Origin: Bacteroidota bacterium
Lineage (GTDB): Bacteria > Bacteroidota > Bacteroidia > Bacteroidales > Rikenellaceae
Direction of reading: 5' to 3'
DNA length: 59,797 bases
Assembly (NCBI GenBank): GCA_015222165.1
Contig: JADFUS010000056.1
Location: 1-59,797 of the forward strand
Below are positions 13,153 to 20,748 of the stretch, in pieces. Numbering within the stretch: position 1 is the first letter of the stretch; every line of letters starts with the position of its first letter. Made by a program: the position numbers and the translations under genes. The notes under the pieces were generated by a model, which was given only the letters and a program-made list of their open reading frames with translations, did not search any database and was not told the origin of the DNA.

Positions 13153-13158
13153 ATATAA

Positions 13159-13197
13159 AAACTGCCGTAAGAATATATTATTTCTTACGGCAGTTTT
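13159..13197. terminator. Bidirectional terminator
   Basis: A 13-pair perfect stem (13161-13173 with 13182-13194, ACTGCCGTAAGAA) has an 8-base loop, an A run before and a T run after. It serves the lipoprotein gene on the plus strand and could end the leftward operon arriving from 13224. Confidence 0.88.
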
Positions 13198-13223: not shown

Positions 13224-13844
13224 TTAATTTATATTCTCAAGTCCTTCGAGGGCTGAAATGTCATTCGGGTGGTTCAAAAGAACTTTGTGGAAAAGAACTT
13301 TTGCGTTTGTCATGTTTTTAAGTTGATAGTGATTCCAAGCTGACATCAACATAGTTTCATAATCAAAAGGATATAAATTTAGGACTATATCAAGGTGTTT
13401 CTTTGCTGTTGTATAATCTTTTCTATAATAGTAAATAACACCCAATTCATAGTTAGCTTTTGTGTTTTTAGAGTCTAATTCGAGGATAGATAGATATATA
13501 CTTTCTACATTCAACCAGCTTTCTATTTTCTTTTGTGCCATAGCTTCTCCAAGAAGTGGCTCTATAGCTTTTGGCATTATGTTCTTGGAAATGCTATAAT
13601 ATTCTATGCTTTTTTCATATTTCTGTGCCGATAGATTAAGCCAGCCTAAGCGTAAATTTATCTCATAGCTGTTTTTATCATATACGTTTGCAATTTCTTT
13701 AATAGCTTCAGAAAATTGTTCTTTATCTTCAAGAACATATGATTTAGAAAATGCTTTTTGAAGAATAGATTGTGTGTTTTGGGCGTAGGCGTTAGCTCCG
13801 TAAAAACTTAATATACAGATTATTATTATAAGTTTATTATGCAT
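13224..13844 (-). CDS. Secreted tetratricopeptide-repeat protein
   Basis: This 206-residue protein has a signal peptide (cleavage near AYAQ, about residue 22). Four to five TPR-like helical pairs follow, for example NLRLGWLNLSAQKYEKSIEYY, ANYELGVIYYYRKDYTTAKKHL and MLMSAWNHYQLKNMTNAKVLF. It is probably a periplasmic scaffold for protein contacts. It is the last gene of the six-gene operon and overlaps the beta-barrel gene by 19 bases, so it probably works with it (inference). No enzymatic motif is seen. Confidence 0.85.
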   Translation of the reverse strand: MHNKLIIIICILSFYGANAYAQNTQSILQKAFSKSYVLEDKEQFSEAIKEIANVYDKNSYEINLRLGWLNLSAQKYEKSIEYYSISKNIMPKAIEPLLGEAMAQKKIESWLNVESIYLSILELDSKNTKANYELGVIYYYRKDYTTAKKHLDIVLNLYPFDYETMLMSAWNHYQLKNMTNAKVLFHKVLLNHPNDISALEGLENIN

Positions 13845-15145
13845 TGTAGTAAAATTTGATGGTTGTTATATTTAGTTTTTTCTATTTTTATTTCTGTTGT
13901 TGTTGGCATATACATATAGCTACCATTGCTTTGAATATATGAATATTGAGGTATTAGTTGTATGTTTTTGATGTTGAAAATAAAAAATGCCGAGGCTTTA
14001 AGTTTAATGTTATCTACAGTATTGTTCACAACAAATCCACTATTGGTCATCAATTTTTGGTGGTCGCCATAAGAGCAGTTAATTCCAAAATCTACGGCTT
14101 TGTGTAGCCTTATGCCAATATCTTCTCTTATAACATATTTGTTTTTTTTGTTATTATTCATATATGTAAAAGAGGAATTTAGATAGTAGTATGGATTACC
14201 CCAAGGGAAAACTTTTACCGCTCCCTCACCAAGATAGTTTATTTCTCCGAAAAAATTGCTTACCCCAGCTCTTATAAAAATGTTGGTGTAGGGAAGTTTT
14301 TTCGAAAGGCTAATATTTCCAAAAAACGAATCGTATTGTGATTTATTATCTATATAAATATATTTAGCATTTGTGGTTTCATATTTCGCTGTTGCACTTT
14401 GTGAGCTTTCACGATAATATCCTGCTGTAGCCATAAGCGTATAGCTTTTATTAAAAGTATAATCAAGCCCTATGACATATTGTAAATTCGTGTTTGTATA
14501 ATTTGAGGTATGTTCAGCTTCGATATTGCTTTGAACAACTCCTAAGGCATTTGTTTGAATATATGAGAATTGATTATATAAATTTATTCTTTTAGATAAT
14601 CTGTTTTTTATAAATAGTTCACCAAAATAATTCTCTTTTTGAAGAGTATTTTCTGCATAAATCCCACCGTTAAGAAAATCTTTGTTTTCTTGATTGTTAA
14701 ATGTAGTTCCTCCATCAACAATAATTTGTTTAAAAGAGTTTGCAAAGTTATTTTTTTTTGGATTTACTATTTTTAAAACTTTAGGGTGTTGGTTGGCAAA
14801 AAGTTCTGAGCTTACAGTTCTACCCGTATATAGATAGCAATAGTAAATGTACATTTGTAAATTAACATCGTAGTTGTATCGTTTATACGCTTTTTTGAAA
14901 TGTATAAGTGCTTGTTCATAATTTTTATGTTGGTACTCTATTATGCCCAGACGCATATCTAAATAGTAAAAGCTTATATCGTTTTTTTTAGCTATTTTTT
15001 TAGTTTTATGAAGTCCTTTAATATCGTTTTTCAAATATTGTTCATAGCTTAAACTGTCAATAAAATATGTCTTATTTTGAGCAAAAGAGAAAAACGATAT
15101 TATTGAAAAAAAACCTATTAAAATTAGTCGAATATGTATTTGCAT
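13826..15145 (-). CDS. Outer-membrane beta-barrel protein with N-terminal TPR-like part
   Basis: This 439-residue protein has a signal peptide (ending near FSFAQ, about 22). A short helical TPR-like stretch (about 60-115) carries LGIIEYQHKNYEQALIHF. From about 150 to the end, amphipathic strands rich in Tyr/Asn/Ser alternate in the manner of an outer-membrane barrel, and the C-terminus ends in a hydrophobic strand. It resembles YaiO-type barrels in layout, but I would not name it so. It overlaps the urea-transporter/peptidase gene by 22 bases. A role as the outer-membrane component of the operon's product pathway is inference. Confidence 0.78.
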   Translation of the reverse strand: MQIHIRLILIGFFSIISFFSFAQNKTYFIDSLSYEQYLKNDIKGLHKTKKIAKKNDISFYYLDMRLGIIEYQHKNYEQALIHFKKAYKRYNYDVNLQMYIYYCYLYTGRTVSSELFANQHPKVLKIVNPKKNNFANSFKQIIVDGGTTFNNQENKDFLNGGIYAENTLQKENYFGELFIKNRLSKRINLYNQFSYIQTNALGVVQSNIEAEHTSNYTNTNLQYVIGLDYTFNKSYTLMATAGYYRESSQSATAKYETTNAKYIYIDNKSQYDSFFGNISLSKKLPYTNIFIRAGVSNFFGEINYLGEGAVKVFPWGNPYYYLNSSFTYMNNNKKNKYVIREDIGIRLHKAVDFGINCSYGDHQKLMTNSGFVVNNTVDNIKLKASAFFIFNIKNIQLIPQYSYIQSNGSYMYMPTTTEIKIEKTKYNNHQILLQCIINL

Positions 15146-17295
15146 ATTTTTTCTTTATTATTTATTGATAGCGATTTTAGCTTATTATCTTTTACTATAA
15201 TTTCAAAATTACGTTCTTTTAATTTTTTAGAAAAAGTTACGTTTGCTACACTGCTTTTAATAGTCTCTTCTTTAGAAAAAATATTATCGCTAGAATATGA
15301 ATTTGATATATATTTTGATTTTGTGAAGTGTCCAAAAGGAGCTATGAAATCTTGAAAAAAGAGAACGAAAGAGTTGCAAAAATACATGGTAGGGAAAAAA
15401 TCCTCAACTTTAAGATTTTTATATGATGCGAGTAAAATTTTGTGTGTGGCAAGATAAAAATCAAATAATAAAGATTTTGTATCGCCTTCAAAATCATAAG
15501 TAGAAAAAATTGCACCATCATAATTGAACCATACCGTAGAATTGGTTTGTTCACATTTTATATATTTATTATTATATGAATCTGTATTTATTTTCCATGT
15601 TATCGCATTGTCTAAATCTTTTTCATTTCTTAAAATTATTTCAGAATTTGGCTTTAAATTAAATGCTTCGGAGAGATTTTTTGAAACGTCAATACGGCTT
15701 ATAATATCGTTTTCTTTTGGTGTCTCAAATGTTTTTAGAGATATTTCGTTATTCTTATAAAGTATATAATTTGTTAAAGGGTAGGCTAATGTTTTGCTTC
15801 CTTTAACGGGTGATAGCTGAATTTGAAAATGTATGTGTGGCTCTGGCGAACGTCCAGAATTTCCACAGTTTGCGAGTTGTGTGTCCTTTGTTATAAAATT
15901 ACCGATATCTACTTTAATACTATCTTTTTTTAGATGTGAAATTTGTGAGAAAATACCATTCATATGGTTAATAATAATGGTGTTACCCCAATTATTTTCT
16001 GTATCAACATCTCCTATATTATTATCGTTTACATTATTTGTAATGTCGTAAACATATCCTTCGGCAGAAGCTAGAACAGGTTTATCGTAGGCGTAAAAAT
16101 CTGTTGTTTTTTCGCCATAATTCATATAGGTTTTTTCCTTTTTATCAACAATAGAAAAATCTAAAGCATTTGCCCAATCTCCTAAATGTGTGATTTTTCC
16201 AAAATAACCTTGAGTGATTTTCCATTTCCCCCAGCATGGTATTTCGAATTTTTTTATAAGCGTATTTTTCAAATGTTTTGCATTTGAGAGTGTCTTATAG
16301 AGTGCTTTCTCAGGTGAATAATATTGTATAGCAATTAGTTTAAAATGATTTTGCGTATATCTATTTTTAACGAAAATTAAAAATAAAATAGTTACTAAAC
16401 TAAAAGATAAAGTGAATGTTTTAAGTTGAAATACATTGAATATTTTTTCTCCCGTTATTAAAAATAAAACAACTATTGGAGCGAGAAAAAATACAGCTAA
16501 ATAGCTTTTGTAATTTGGCAGTATAAAAAAACTCCCTAAAGCTATAGCCATAAAAATAAAGTTTGTCCCCTGCAAATTCTGAACTAAAATATTCAGGTCT
16601 AGTCCTAATAAAATTAGCCAGTAATATGCCGCTGCAAAGCCAATTATTGTTGTTGAAAAAGCTATGCGTGATGTATATAAAATTCCTAAAGACAGCACTA
16701 ATCCTACGAGAACAGAGCTTTGAAAAAAGACACTCGAAAGAGTTTTAAAATAGGCACTTACTATTTGTGGCAGTTGCAGACTATCTAGGCAATGAACGAA
16801 ATTGTATATTGCCGATAATTGCTCTTTACTTTGGTAGTTGTCAAGATATATAAGTTTATCTTGATACTCTATAAAACTAACATTTCCTAAGGATAAAAAT
16901 ATTATCCAATAAGTTATTAAAAAAGGAAATGTTAGAAAAGGCAACCCTTTGTTGTTTAGTCTGTTTTGGAAATAAACGGTTAATAGAAAAAGTAGGATTA
17001 TTGATATAAAAAAAATAGGTAGAAAAATCCCATTAAATTTATATTCAAAAGTAAAAGCCATAGATAGCAGTACGGCATTAAAACCGAAAATCCCGTTATC
17101 TATATCACTTTTGTAACAACCAAAAATTTTGGCAAGGAAATTTATAAATAATACACCTGTCAAGGTGCATATTCCCGTGAATATATCAATAAAAGTTATT
17201 AGAAAAATGATAAGTCCAATAATTTTATTTACTGAAAAAAAAATTTGAGAATATGACCTTACGGTGCTATTAATTAAAGATTTAACTTTATCCAT
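15124..17295 (-). CDS. Urea-transporter-like membrane domain fused to M23 peptidase
   Basis: This 723-residue fusion starts with a urea-transporter-like membrane domain (about 1-310, roughly ten hydrophobic segments). It shows the paired half-motifs GIFGFNAVLLSMA (68-80) and LQGTNFIFMAIALGSFF (241-257). A LytM/M23 domain (about 355-500) keeps all zinc ligands: His370 and Asp379 in THLGDWANALDF, and His489 in PHIHF, plus the accessory His454. The remaining ~220 residues are unassigned and end in basic beta-rich sequence. M23 enzymes cut peptidoglycan cross-bridges or Gly-rich peptides. The membrane part could move urea or a small amide or amine. It sits 5 bases after the decarboxylase gene. 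Confidence 0.85.
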   Translation of the reverse strand: MDKVKSLINSTVRSYSQIFFSVNKIIGLIIFLITFIDIFTGICTLTGVLFINFLAKIFGCYKSDIDNGIFGFNAVLLSMAFTFEYKFNGIFLPIFFISIILLFLLTVYFQNRLNNKGLPFLTFPFLITYWIIFLSLGNVSFIEYQDKLIYLDNYQSKEQLSAIYNFVHCLDSLQLPQIVSAYFKTLSSVFFQSSVLVGLVLSLGILYTSRIAFSTTIIGFAAAYYWLILLGLDLNILVQNLQGTNFIFMAIALGSFFILPNYKSYLAVFFLAPIVVLFLITGEKIFNVFQLKTFTLSFSLVTILFLIFVKNRYTQNHFKLIAIQYYSPEKALYKTLSNAKHLKNTLIKKFEIPCWGKWKITQGYFGKITHLGDWANALDFSIVDKKEKTYMNYGEKTTDFYAYDKPVLASAEGYVYDITNNVNDNNIGDVDTENNWGNTIIINHMNGIFSQISHLKKDSIKVDIGNFITKDTQLANCGNSGRSPEPHIHFQIQLSPVKGSKTLAYPLTNYILYKNNEISLKTFETPKENDIISRIDVSKNLSEAFNLKPNSEIILRNEKDLDNAITWKINTDSYNNKYIKCEQTNSTVWFNYDGAIFSTYDFEGDTKSLLFDFYLATHKILLASYKNLKVEDFFPTMYFCNSFVLFFQDFIAPFGHFTKSKYISNSYSSDNIFSKEETIKSSVANVTFSKKLKERNFEIIVKDNKLKSLSINNKEKICKYIFD

Positions 17296-17300
17296 TTATA

Positions 17301-18659
17301 TTATAAATCAAAGTTTTTAAGGTGTTCAGGGACTCTCTCTTGTGAAGTTACAATTGTAACGTCTTCTTTCTCACGTACCAAGTGAATAGCTCCTTTTGTG
17401 TCTATTAATACAATATTCGGACGAGTTTCTATAAATTGCATCCATTGAGTCATATTATATGCGCCAATACGATGAACAACTAAATTATCGCCTCTATTTA
17501 GAAGTGGTAAATTTATGTTTTCACGAATAATATCAATATTCATACAAAGAGGTCCATAAAGGACAACATCTTCTGTTTGGTAGCTAAATTCTTGTGCTGG
17601 AGAAATTTTGTGATTATACCAAAAAGAGGTGAAAAGTATGTTTACTCCAAAGTTTGCTACTATAGCTTTTCTTCCGTCAGTAAGTCTTTTATTAGCTAAA
17701 ACTGAGCCAAGAAGATATCCTGCATCGTCAATCAGTGCTCGTCCAGTTTCTAAAAATAGAGTAGGGAGTTCTGAAGATTCGAAACCTGCATTTAAAAGAC
17801 CTTCAGAAATTGAACGTGCATAATCTTCAAAATGAGGAATGGTATCTGAGCCTTGTAGATAAGCTCCTTTAAGAGAATTTGCCGATGCAAAACCACCGCC
17901 AAGATCTATATAACTTATGTTTTTATTAAATTTTTCTTTTATTTTTAAAGCTAAATCGCTAAGTTTTTGAGATGCAATTTTGTAGGCATCAGCAGTTAAA
18001 ATATATGTTCCAATATGAGTGTGAAGTCCTACTAATTCTAATTCAGGGTGAGAAAATATTTTATTTATAGCTGTCCATGCATTTCCATTTTCATAATTAA
18101 AACCAAATCTATCCCACATAGGATATATTCCAGAGTCCAAATTTACTCTTATAGCTACTCTTGCTTTGCTTTTTATCTCTTTTAGCAAATCCACTAAAAC
18201 ATACATCTCATCGTAATGGTCAATATGAATTAAAGCATTATTTTCGACAGCTAAAAGAAGAGCTTCTTTAGTTTTTCCTGGTCCATTAAAAATTATTTTA
18301 TCTCCAGGAACACCATTCGCAAGTGCTTTTTTAAATTCAAAAGAAGATACAACTTCTGCCCATGAGCCTTCGGAGTGAAAAATGTTGCATACGGCATTAA
18401 GGTAGTTTGTTTTATAACTCCAAGCAAATTGAACTTTAGGGTAGTAGTTCTTAAATATATGTTCAGCTGTTTTATATGTATTTCTTATAGTTTTTTCGGA
18501 AAGGACAAAACATGGAGAGCCATATTCTTTAATAATTTTTTTTATAGGAACTCCATCTATTTGTAATACAGGAGTTAAAGTTGTTTTAGTACCAAATTTA
18601 TTTAAACAGCCTGTGTTAAGCTTTGTTATTACAGGTCTTTCGTATTTTAGTTTTTCCAT
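17301..18659 (-). CDS. Fold-III PLP-dependent decarboxylase (DAP/ornithine decarboxylase-like)
   Basis: This 452-residue enzyme is of the alanine-racemase-fold decarboxylase family. The PLP lysine is Lys83 (SYKTN). Further hallmarks are HTHIG (213-217), GGGF (254-257), ETGR (304-307, usually EPGR) and the catalytic cysteine in GPLC (Cys372). Members decarboxylate diaminopimelate, ornithine, lysine, arginine or carboxynorspermidine; the substrate here is not readable. The N-terminus carries an extra ~25 residues with Tyr6-x-x-Pro9-x-Ile11 and a later TGCLNKFG. This resembles the YxxPxL leader element bound by PqqD-like RRE domains in lasso-peptide systems. A PqqD-like gene lies two genes upstream in the same operon. 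It is unlikely to be the housekeeping LysA. Confidence 0.88.
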   Translation of the reverse strand: MEKLKYERPVITKLNTGCLNKFGTKTTLTPVLQIDGVPIKKIIKEYGSPCFVLSEKTIRNTYKTAEHIFKNYYPKVQFAWSYKTNYLNAVCNIFHSEGSWAEVVSSFEFKKALANGVPGDKIIFNGPGKTKEALLLAVENNALIHIDHYDEMYVLVDLLKEIKSKARVAIRVNLDSGIYPMWDRFGFNYENGNAWTAINKIFSHPELELVGLHTHIGTYILTADAYKIASQKLSDLALKIKEKFNKNISYIDLGGGFASANSLKGAYLQGSDTIPHFEDYARSISEGLLNAGFESSELPTLFLETGRALIDDAGYLLGSVLANKRLTDGRKAIVANFGVNILFTSFWYNHKISPAQEFSYQTEDVVLYGPLCMNIDIIRENINLPLLNRGDNLVVHRIGAYNMTQWMQFIETRPNIVLIDTKGAIHLVREKEDVTIVTSQERVPEHLKNFDL

Positions 18660-18661
18660 AA

Positions 18662-19711
18662 TTATTTTTCACCTAATATTGCAATTTTTTCAAATTCAGA
18701 AATATCGACAATTAAGTCATAGCTATATCTGATAAATAATTTACCTACTTCATAGTTTTCAAAACATGGGACATCTTCTCCTAAAGCTATTTTTATCATT
18801 GCCTCGGGGTGGTTTTGTCCTGCACCGTTTGCTAAATATACCCATGCTGGAAAACGAGGATTCATCTCTAAAAGATAGTATTTACCCTCTTTAGATTTTA
18901 TGTATTCTAATTCACAACCTCCTGCCCATTTTAGATTTTCGACAGTTTTTTTAGATATTTCGAGTAATTTTTTATCGTCTAGAGTTATTCCTGCCCATGC
19001 TTTTCCTTTGTCGGTAATATACATTTTACGCATAGGAACAGCACCTATACAATTACCTTTTCCATCGCCTAAGGCTGTCACGTTAACTTCTGTTCCACTA
19101 ACAAATTGTTGTAATATTATCGGTAAACCCCATTTGTTAGAGATTTTGTGGAAGTAACTTATTGCTTGTTCTCGAGTCGCAGCTATCGATGCATCATAAT
19201 ATTGTCCTTTGACAACCATAGGATATTCAAATTCTTTTTCGTTGTCTATAAGTTCATTTACAGAAAAAATCATTTTAGATTTAGGAACAAGAATATCATA
19301 TTTCTCTCCAAATTCACAAAGTTTAGATTTATGTCTTGATTCAAATAAATCTATATCAGGAAGAAGCGAGCTTATGCCCAATTCATTTTTTAAAATAGAT
19401 GATAACTTTATAAAATTATAAAGCTCAGCATCAAAATTTGGGATAACAACATCTATATTTTCTTTATAATTTATATATCTTAGTCGCTCTAAAAGCGGTT
19501 CCATTCCTGCTGAAGGAAGAGGAATTTGGTAGCTTTTATCTACGAGGTCATTCATATAAATACCTGGTTCCATAGTCTCATAGCTTAATCCAATAATTCT
19601 AAAATCAAATTCTTTAGAATCTTTAAGACCTCTGATGACAGGAATTCCAGGGCCGGGAGAATCGATATTATTCAATCCAGTTACGGCAACTGTTATTTTT
19701 CTTTTAGTCAT
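18662..19711 (-). CDS. ATP-grasp ligase
   Basis: This 349-residue protein has an N-terminal Rossmann-like preATP-grasp region (about 1-115) and an ATP-grasp fold (about 120-320) of the carbamoyl-phosphate synthetase/biotin carboxylase type. ATP and metal residues are visible in VVKGQ (Lys168), ELEYI (about 267-271) and YLLEMNPRF (Glu282, Asn284, Arg286). Such enzymes activate a carboxylate as acyl phosphate and join it to an amine. With a decarboxylase and a PqqD-like protein alongside, amide-bond formation on a peptide or amino acid is a reasonable guess (inference). It overlaps the PqqD-like gene by 8 bases and precedes the decarboxylase by 2. Confidence 0.9.
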   Translation of the reverse strand: MTKRKITVAVTGLNNIDSPGPGIPVIRGLKDSKEFDFRIIGLSYETMEPGIYMNDLVDKSYQIPLPSAGMEPLLERLRYINYKENIDVVIPNFDAELYNFIKLSSILKNELGISSLLPDIDLFESRHKSKLCEFGEKYDILVPKSKMIFSVNELIDNEKEFEYPMVVKGQYYDASIAATREQAISYFHKISNKWGLPIILQQFVSGTEVNVTALGDGKGNCIGAVPMRKMYITDKGKAWAGITLDDKKLLEISKKTVENLKWAGGCELEYIKSKEGKYYLLEMNPRFPAWVYLANGAGQNHPEAMIKIALGEDVPCFENYEVGKLFIRYSYDLIVDISEFEKIAILGEK

Positions 19712-19949
19712 TTTCTAAGATTTGATAATTACTTAACATCATTTTAAAATCTTCAACATCTTTTTCTAAAATGTTTCTACTGACATCAAATTTCTTTTCT
19801 ATTTCTTTATATAAAGTTTCTCCGTCTTTGCCCTCTTGTAATAATTTTATTACTTCTTTTCCAAGAAAATTAGTAGTGAAAGAGTCTCCCGTTGTAGGAT
19901 TGAAAACAAATCCAGATTCGCTCACAGCAATGTTTTGATTTAATTTCAT
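19704..19949 (-). CDS. PqqD-like peptide-binding protein (RRE fold)
   Basis: This 81-residue protein matches the PqqD / RiPP recognition element pattern. A beta-hairpin start (SESGFVFNPTTGDSFTTN) is followed by three helices (EVIKLLQEGKDGETLYKEI, then NILEKDVEDFKMMLSNY). PqqD-like proteins bind leader peptides and deliver them to modifying enzymes. It is the first gene of the operon, with a candidate promoter about 30 bases upstream. No separate precursor peptide gene is evident nearby. The leader-like stretch I see is at the N-terminus of the decarboxylase. The family call is good; the partner is inferred. Confidence 0.85.
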   Translation of the reverse strand: MKLNQNIAVSESGFVFNPTTGDSFTTNFLGKEVIKLLQEGKDGETLYKEIEKKFDVSRNILEKDVEDFKMMLSNYQILEND

Positions 19950-19974
19950 ATTATAATATTAATAGATTTATACT

Positions 19975-20003
19975 TACTATACCGTTTGAAAGTAATCATA
20001 CCC
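19975..20003 (-). promoter_or_regulatory. Candidate promoter or operator of the PqqD operon
   Basis: On the minus strand GGTAT occurs twice, 19 bases apart (ATACC on plus at 19979-19983 and 19998-20002), about 30-50 bases before the PqqD start. No TAnnTTTG box is present in this spacer. The arrangement could be a -35/-10 pair for the neighbouring ECF sigma factor, or a repeated operator. This is a weak, inferred call. Confidence 0.3.
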
Positions 20004-20007
20004 TACG

Positions 20008-20043
20008 AAAAAAGCAATAAATTATTAAAATTTATTGCTTTTT
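20008..20043. terminator. Terminator after the ECF sigma gene
   Basis: A perfect stem of about 13 pairs (AAAAAGCAATAAA with TTTATTGCTTTTT) has a 9-base loop and A/T flanks. It separates the sigma factor from the PqqD operon, so the operon needs its own promoter. Confidence 0.85.
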
Positions 20044-20045
20044 AT

Positions 20046-20531
20046 TTACAAAATAGTTTTTCTTAGAAAGGTTAATGCTAAGGTCATTCTTTTTTCGACC
20101 GTTTTAATGCTTATCCCAAGAAGCTCGGCTATTTCTTTATATTTTAGATTATCTCGTCTATTTAGTAAAAAAGTAGTCTTTATATTTTCAGGCATTTTTT
20201 TCAAAGCGTTTGTGTAGTCTCTTTTCAGATTTGTGCAATCTATTCGTTCATCAATATAAATTGTATCATAACTATTAGAATATATGCTTTTTTCGAATTC
20301 ATTTTGAATAACATTTTTTCGATATTCACTGATTACTATATCATTCGCTATTTTATATAAAAGAGATTTTATTTGTGAAGTATATATACTATCTTTTTTC
20401 TCCCAAATTTTTGAAAATACGTCATGCAGAATATCTTGAGCAATATTTTTATTTTTACATTTTTTTGAGATGTAATTTAATATATCGCTTGAATACTCTT
20501 TATATATTTCTTCAAATTCAAGGTTATTCAT
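20046..20531 (-). CDS. ECF RNA polymerase sigma factor
   Basis: This 161-residue sigma-70-family ECF factor has region 2 (about 8-70: FEEIYKEYSSDILNYI, AQDILHDVFSKIWEKK) and region 4 with a helix-turn-helix (about 105-155: MPENIKTTFLLNRRDNLKYKEIAELLGISIKTVEKRM). No anti-sigma gene lies next to it. It is immediately upstream of the PqqD operon, in the same direction, but ends in its own terminator. A role in switching on that operon is inference. A -7 box TATATTTG lies at 20568-20575 on the minus strand. Confidence 0.92.
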   Translation of the reverse strand: MNNLEFEEIYKEYSSDILNYISKKCKNKNIAQDILHDVFSKIWEKKDSIYTSQIKSLLYKIANDIVISEYRKNVIQNEFEKSIYSNSYDTIYIDERIDCTNLKRDYTNALKKMPENIKTTFLLNRRDNLKYKEIAELLGISIKTVEKRMTLALTFLRKTIL

Positions 20532-20709: not shown

Positions 20710-20748
20710 AAAAATGCCGTAATAATATTATTTATTACGGCATTTTTT
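20710..20748. terminator. Bidirectional terminator
   Basis: ATGCCGTAATAA (20714-20725) pairs perfectly with TTATTACGGCAT (20732-20743), with A and T runs on the two sides. It is related in sequence to the terminator at 13159-13197 and ends the leftward guanine deaminase gene. Confidence 0.88.

Follow-up and report, generated by a model that had tools for sequence, protein, structure and literature searches.

A conserved Bacteroidota gene cassette in which a lasso-type recognition element is predicted to dock on the N-terminal tail of a decarboxylase

Recognition elements (RREs) of ribosomally synthesized and post-translationally modified peptides (RiPPs) are known as the route by which RiPP enzymes reach their precursors, and their usual clients are precursor peptides (PMC12710340). 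For the discrete lasso-type RREs the ligand motif is established as [Y/W]xxPx[L/V/I/F/A] (PMC13381572, PMC12710340), and in LppB the Tyr of the leader forms a hydrogen bond with D70, its Pro lies against F74, and its Pro kink is fixed by N33, at the position of PbaB1 G42 (PMC13381572). Among the fold-III pyridoxal 5'-phosphate (PLP) decarboxylases, FigC has been grouped with SbnH, AcsE, MccE and BtrK, enzymes whose substrates are amino acids in conjugated or carrier-bound form (PMC7857480). Here we describe a six-gene cassette in a window of 59,797 nucleotides (contig JADFUS010000056.1 of a Bacteroidota bacterium of the Rikenellaceae) in which an RRE/leader pair apparently operates between two proteins of one pathway, a PqqD-type RRE and a decarboxylase. 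On balance we consider it probable that this is a conserved Bacteroidota cassette for biosynthesis and export, in which the RRE docks on the tail of the decarboxylase and the joint product of a ligase and the decarboxylase is exported. The individual parts fall into known folds. What is new with respect to the open-access literature is the whole cassette and its proposed docking logic; in that literature we found no paper on the gene set, on the fusion of a urea transporter (UT) domain to an M23 peptidase or on a natural leader-tagged enzyme. The first-pass annotation of the window knew of no named pathway with this set of genes, and for none of the known systems that we considered does the whole cassette show every defining feature. 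The pairing of an RRE with a correspondingly tagged decarboxylase, together with a ligase and an export set, suggests that a small molecule is made and exported by a route not described before.

The cassette occupies positions 19949–13224 of the minus strand in the gene order PqqD, ATP-grasp ligase, fold-III PLP decarboxylase (DEC), UT-M23 fusion, an outer-membrane protein combining tetratricopeptide repeats (TPRs) with a barrel, and a TPR protein. The genes for PqqD and ATP-grasp overlap by 8 bp, gaps of 2 and 5 bp follow, and the last two junctions are overlaps of 22 and 19 bp, all as originally annotated. Domain calls were checked against Pfam and NCBIfam and the barrel was assigned from an AlphaFold2 model, which bore out the domain identities that had been proposed from the sequence. 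The features are as follows.

19704–19949, minus strand: PqqD-family discrete RRE of 81 residues (PF05402, 5e-8)
19869–19871, 19758–19760 and 19746–19748, minus strand: PqqD clamp residues N27, D64 and F68, respectively
18662–19711, minus strand: ATP-grasp ligase, CPSase/PylC-like (PRK12767-type), overlapping the PqqD gene
17301–18659, minus strand: DEC, fold-III (alanine-racemase-fold) PLP decarboxylase (PF02784/PF00278; Orn_Arg_deC, 1e-28)
18561–18659, minus strand: N-terminal extension of DEC, residues 1–33
18627–18644, minus strand: leader-like motif YERPVI, DEC residues 6–11
15124–17295, minus strand: UT-M23 fusion of 723 residues (PF03253, 4.1e-46; PF01551, 3.3e-13)
about 16372–17271, about 15817–16188 and about 15127–15798, minus strand: UT, M23 and C-terminal domains of the fusion, respectively
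13826–15145, minus strand: outer-membrane protein with signal peptide, TPR helices and 14-stranded beta-barrel (residues 138–438; AlphaFold2)
13224–13844, minus strand: periplasmic TPR protein with signal peptide (TPR by Pfam/NCBIfam; present in 57/70 loci)

A search of the PDB with the PqqD profile returned the lasso RRE TbiB1 as the top match (1.2e-11), followed by PbaB1, TfuB1 and LppB. The alignments are ungapped and place D64 and F68 on D70 and F74 of LppB at a constant offset, and N27, D64 and F68 on G42, Q79 and F83 of PbaB1; N27 is kept in 176/176 sequences and F68 in 169/176. Judged by its sequence, PqqD is a lasso-type RRE. As in the lasso pairs TbiB1-TbiA and TfuB1-TfuA and the LPP pair LppB-LppA, a discrete PqqD-type RRE is accompanied by a YxxPx[ILV] ligand motif, and the Tyr clamp residue, the Asn and Phe contacts and the antiparallel strand register are shared with those RRE-leader pairs. 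The motif, however, stands on the precursor in the lasso and LPP pairs and on an enzyme, DEC, in the cassette, and unlike lasso-peptide biosynthesis the conserved cassette has no B2 protease, Asn-synthetase-like lasso cyclase or core peptide.

DEC carries approximately 33 residues ahead of its fold, and its alignments with FigC and LysA begin only at residue 34–35. Over 91 sequences the consensus of this tail is [Y/F]ExPx[I/L/V]...G..NKFG, i.e. the known RRE ligand motif with Phe as an additional first letter, with P9 and K21 each in 91/91, G23 in 90/91 and E7 in 89/91; among 175 cassettes, P9, [YF]6 and [ILV]11 are each kept in 175/175. A leader motif on a catalytic enzyme is maintained across several classes of the phylum. 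Searching the PDB with the 30-residue tail gave no match, the query being too short.

The two proteins vary together at the expected contact. Among an initial 66 informative cassettes, Phe replaced Tyr in the tail of four, and these four and no others had Tyr in place of Asp at PqqD position 64. Across 175 cassettes, Tyr at DEC position 6 pairs with Asp (119), Asn (16) or His (1) at PqqD position 64, and Phe pairs with Tyr (23), Ser (12), Ala (3) or His (1) and never with Asp or Asn. When all PqqD and DEC columns were compared by mutual information with average-product correction, the pair PqqD64-DEC6 ranked first of 36,160 (91 rows, z 8.0) and again first of 35,840 (175 rows, z 17.0; next 11.0). 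The third-ranked pair, PqqD53-DEC4, behaves as a salt-bridge pair, with K/R facing L/I/Q versus E/D facing K, and in a published RRE-leader complex the N-terminal Lys of the leader lies near the region equivalent to PqqD53 (PMC13381572). Finally, among 18 antidiagonals tested, the one predicted from the published strand pairing, PqqD + DEC = 37, comes out on top with a mean z of 1.79.

That PqqD is a genuine lasso-type RRE, and that RREs normally bind precursors (PMC12710340), would also accord with an ordinary RiPP pathway, in which the client is a free precursor whose gene lies elsewhere and DEC has adopted the motif in its tail only so as to be recruited alongside. We regard such a pathway as improbable, as the RRE covaries with the DEC tail, the cassette lacks a lasso cyclase, a B2 protease and a radical S-adenosylmethionine enzyme, and the 57 motif-bearing short open reading frames (ORFs) found among 20,199 short ORFs in 94 loci are scattered, none of them being recurrent. 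A separate precursor peptide with a YxxP-type motif was dropped as a candidate on this last ground, and for the same reason the DEC tail is, on sequence grounds, the sole conserved candidate ligand for PqqD that we found. Graspetides differ in that their ATP-grasp is a macrocyclase instead of the CPSase/PRK12767-like enzyme of the cassette; as for an adjacent precursor of the graspetide type, no YxxP-type ORF recurs, precursors without that motif not having been scanned for. Because the 64-6 pair, the salt-bridge pair and the strand register covary and no conserved separate precursor was found, PqqD very probably docks on the N-terminal tail of DEC itself. With the tail as the RRE client a free modified peptide is not needed, and a free RiPP precursor is thus not required in the reading we favour. 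If this docking is real, genome mining that looks for precursors beside RREs will miss systems of this kind, and the RRE and tail would constitute a ready-made natural docking tag.

The chemistry of the cassette can be approached from its two enzymes, both of which have intact catalytic residues. In ATP-grasp, the E-x-N-P-R motif and most catalytic columns are at least 97% conserved over 69 orthologues. In DEC, K83, E304, R307 and C372 are invariant. Next to the catalytic Cys, M373 stands where an acidic residue that binds a free side-chain amine is usual. The top PDB match of DEC is the N-citrylornithine decarboxylase FigC (9.5e-59), ahead of the LysA enzymes, and BtrK was also matched; the residue beside the catalytic Cys is Met in FigC (M355) as it is in 64/64 DEC sequences (M373). 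The citrate contacts H357 and R387 of FigC are, however, replaced by I375 and Q405. The Met in place of the acidic residue, the replaced citrate contacts and the kinship with the FigC clade make it likely that the substrate of DEC is an amino acid whose side chain has been coupled beforehand to a neutral group, in keeping with the adjoining ATP-grasp. DEC as an N-citrylornithine decarboxylase was rejected, as it scores 235.9 bits against the FslC/FigC model of NCBIfam, below the cut-off of 500, in addition to the changed citrate contacts. Compared with the FigC/FslC system of rhizoferrin, which holds the nearest solved relative of DEC and shares the Met beside the catalytic Cys, the cassette further differs by having no non-ribosomal-peptide-synthetase-independent siderophore (NIS) synthetase and by the extra RRE-tag tail on DEC.

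The fold and the similarity to LysA (216.5 bits) might instead suggest a lysine or polyamine operon, with DEC acting as a diaminopimelate decarboxylase (DAPDC) or ornithine decarboxylase (ODC) and the UT domain exporting a diamine or urea. This is very unlikely, since the score falls below the lysA cut-off of 297.9, the acidic residue that would bind the side-chain amine is an invariant Met (within an invariant C-M-N-I-D), FigC is the nearer relative, and the clade is described as unrelated to polyamines unless an enzyme is a DAPDC or D-ODC (PMC7857480). On the basis of the model cut-off and the active-site residues, LysA and ODC were ruled out as identities for DEC.

The invariant K21 and near-invariant G23 of the tail (91/91 and 90/91) extend conservation beyond the RRE motif. 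They are compatible with a different role for the tail, namely that of a scaffold that PqqD presents, to which ATP-grasp attaches an amino acid, which DEC decarboxylates in cis and from which M23 releases the product through the UT-type channel. In butirosin biosynthesis the ATP-grasp enzyme BtrJ loads Glu on a carrier protein and a fold-III decarboxylase acts on it. The cassette shares with BtrJ/BtrI/BtrK an ATP-grasp, a fold-III decarboxylase of the same clade and a small helper protein, yet an RRE serves as its helper, it has membrane and outer-membrane genes attached, and the conserved cassette contains no acyl carrier protein or other carrier protein. A scaffold would, by analogy, replace the carrier protein of butirosin with a built-in peptide and K21 would be its candidate attachment site; a leader peptide fused to its own enzyme would then do the work of a carrier protein. 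Besides the two residues, the match of DEC to BtrK, a carrier-bound glutamate decarboxylase in the fold-III clade of FigC (PMC7857480), and the predicted cytosolic position of M23 (see below) speak for it; against it, K21 and G23 may be merely structural, as the segment that holds them continues into the first strand of DEC, and both tail modification and M23 cleavage at the tail are conjecture. We therefore hold the scaffold, and likewise K21 as its site of attachment on the butirosin pattern, to be possible but rather unlikely.

Further information on the product comes from relatives in which the two enzymes have been exchanged. UT-M23 in the absence of the cassette ATP-grasp occurs in eight genomes, which represent a second type of locus (L120–L127, e.g. 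L121:11738-16435). In the six of these with sufficient contig, UT-M23, TPR and barrel are arranged divergently next to a VOC-like gene (a name given from the sequence, with no Pfam match), a fold-I ornithine/lysine/arginine (OKR) decarboxylase (PF01276; nearest solved relative Mycobacterium Rv2531c, which has no known activity) and an ATP-grasp of another kind (PRK06524). Along with DEC, PqqD and the tail have disappeared. The UT-M23 proteins of this type make up a single clade (100*), nested within a supported set to which the protein of the window also belongs. The presence of an unrelated pair of ATP-grasp and decarboxylase on the same UT-M23/TPR/barrel module supports, by analogy, the view that the module handles amide- and amine-type products. 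In one of these loci (L125:5902-7092) the TPR protein is a tandem-duplicated fusion of 396 residues on the strand opposite to the module.

The UT domain of the fusion is full length, and its whole fold aligns with the urea transporter dvUT. As in dvUT and UT-B, the Gln of the first repeat (Q17) is mostly kept (49/58), whereas the protein is fused to M23 and a further domain, falls below the yut cut-off and has the Gln/Glu of the second repeat replaced. The zinc and catalytic residues of M23 (H370, D379, H454, H487 and H489) are present in 58/58 sequences. The density of Lys and Arg is 0.147 in inside loops versus 0.043 in outside loops, in the same direction in 58/58 sequences, both termini are predicted to be inside, and no further hydrophobic segment lies between UT and M23; the M23 domain is predicted from this to be cytosolic. 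A cytosolic M23 fused to a UT channel would be odd for both families. The C-terminal domain of approximately 220 residues (15127–15798) has no Pfam match and carries a conserved DFEG..S motif. For the barrel protein, the AlphaFold2 model (pLDDT 80.3) shows TPRs and a 14-stranded barrel, and Foldseek matched it to the small-molecule outer-membrane channels FadL, OmpG and CymA, and at a lower level to BcsC and a polysaccharide outer-membrane secretin. In predicted structure it resembles the TPR-barrel exporters BcsC and PgaA in placing TPRs before an outer-membrane barrel, and differs from these systems by its short TPR part, its predicted 14 strands and the lack of a polysaccharide synthase. 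The signal peptide of the separate TPR protein was seen by eye.

Taken as a pathway, the favoured reading would begin in the cytosol, where PqqD would bind the leader-like tail of DEC and, translated together with ATP-grasp, may act as a small adaptor joining ligase and decarboxylase. Given the clade and pocket of DEC and the exchange of enzymes in relatives, ATP-grasp would couple an amino acid via its side chain to a second group and DEC would strip the free alpha-carboxylate, leaving a small amide-bearing amine. This product, possibly trimmed by the M23 domain, would, from the anatomy of the envelope proteins, enter the periplasm via the UT-type channel and leave via the TPR-barrel protein, with the TPR protein as periplasmic partner. 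The first-pass annotation had likewise envisaged a cytoplasmic product passed to the envelope; the coupling of amide and decarboxylation chemistry to envelope passage is retained, while the free modified peptide it had invoked is not needed.

Several points weigh against this reading. The second-ranked pair of the scan, 64-20, and several others are probably phylogenetic, and the 64-6 covariation had been noticed by eye before the rank scan was run. The tree contains only 7 Y/F changes, at least 4 of them on supported branches, and the 4 supported independent pairs (3 concordant, 0 discordant, 1 without change) are too few for the sign test to reach significance. At the second-repeat position of the UT domain (188) the Gln/Glu has become Ala/Ser/Gly, so that one of two pseudo-symmetric polar pore positions is lost; by alignment this position matches what we take to be the urea-binding E187 of dvUT, and plain urea specificity is thus doubtful. 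UT pores are, moreover, narrow. In M23, a Cys pair (C402/C477) co-occurs in 40/58 sequences, which a cytosolic domain does not explain, and the protein of the window has one of the two. The AlphaFold2 model of UT-M23, made from 4 sequences, was too poor to use (pLDDT 54), and Foldseek recovered with it only the UT and M23 folds.

The arrangement recurs far beyond chance, the gene order being shared by about 90 loci that represent many families and also several classes. An orthologue of ATP-grasp is found in 76/395 genomes of the class of the window (19%), in 152/393 of its order (39%) and in 30/345 of a phylum sample, most of the 30 lying outside that class; Ignavibacteria contigs also carry it. 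With the cassette this common in the order and class samples, its product may be a small molecule that is widespread among environmental Bacteroidota. Wherever the contig suffices, the order PqqD-ATP-grasp-DEC-UT/M23-barrel-TPR is kept in nearly all of 70 loci, the exceptions being occasional gene insertions and a small number of loci that lack the barrel, and PqqD is present in 70/70 of this first set once 10 masked ORFs are recovered. Order and spacing are thus conserved in relatives, in agreement with the single operon that had been proposed, and the neighbourhood comparison, in which the genes might have proved unlinked, found them linked. Loci from other classes also hold the unit, several with TPR placed ahead of a barrel-like gene. 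In one genome (G211, locus L135) the cassette is split between contigs: ATP-grasp lies on one, and UT-M23, barrel and TPR lie on a second, where they have different genes upstream. An ATP-grasp orthologue is missing from all 36 further members of the window's family that were sampled, and in the tree the ATP-grasp and DEC of the window group with other lineages of the class and not with its own order, whereas the flanking gene for an S46-type peptidase is at home in the family, which together suggest from sequence that the lineage gained the cassette horizontally. A plasmid search with ATP-grasp gave no match, and PADLOC and PHROGs searches returned nothing useful for the cassette.

The surroundings of the cassette in the window bear on its transcription and on its supposed control by the neighbouring extracytoplasmic function (ECF) sigma factor.

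13158–13197, minus strand: terminator-like stem-loop with a 16-bp stem, 3' of the last gene (TPR)
20009–20043, minus strand: terminator-like perfect 15-bp inverted repeat with a T run, between the ECF gene and PqqD
20046–20531, minus strand: ECF sigma factor (TIGR02985-like), a neighbour outside the conserved cassette

Because a stem-loop follows the last gene and the inverted repeat with its T run precedes PqqD, the transcription unit probably extends from PqqD to TPR and excludes the ECF gene, which lies 96 bp upstream (20531–20046). Regulators adjoining the cassette are variable (AraC-type, LytTR-type or none), and sigma factors beside it amount to 3 weak matches in 70 loci with no conserved ECF orthologue. 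The link to the ECF factor that had been drawn initially did not hold up on these observations, and the envelope-stress reading offered with it was not supported either. An envelope-stress or peptidoglycan-remodelling device under ECF control, with M23 acting on the cell wall, would make use of the intact catalytic residues of M23, the adjoining ECF gene and the periplasmic and outer-membrane partners. We consider it highly unlikely, as the ECF gene is not conserved and is set apart by the palindrome, the Lys and Arg bias places M23 in the cytosol in every sequence, and the ligase, decarboxylase and RRE are left unexplained.

The small ECF gene has terminator-like palindromes on both sides, and no anti-sigma gene was recognised directly adjoining it. 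Strong bidirectional terminator-like stem-loops stand at 13158–13197 and 20710–20747, and their stems are nearly identical (ACTGCCGTAAGAA and AATGCCGTAATAA).

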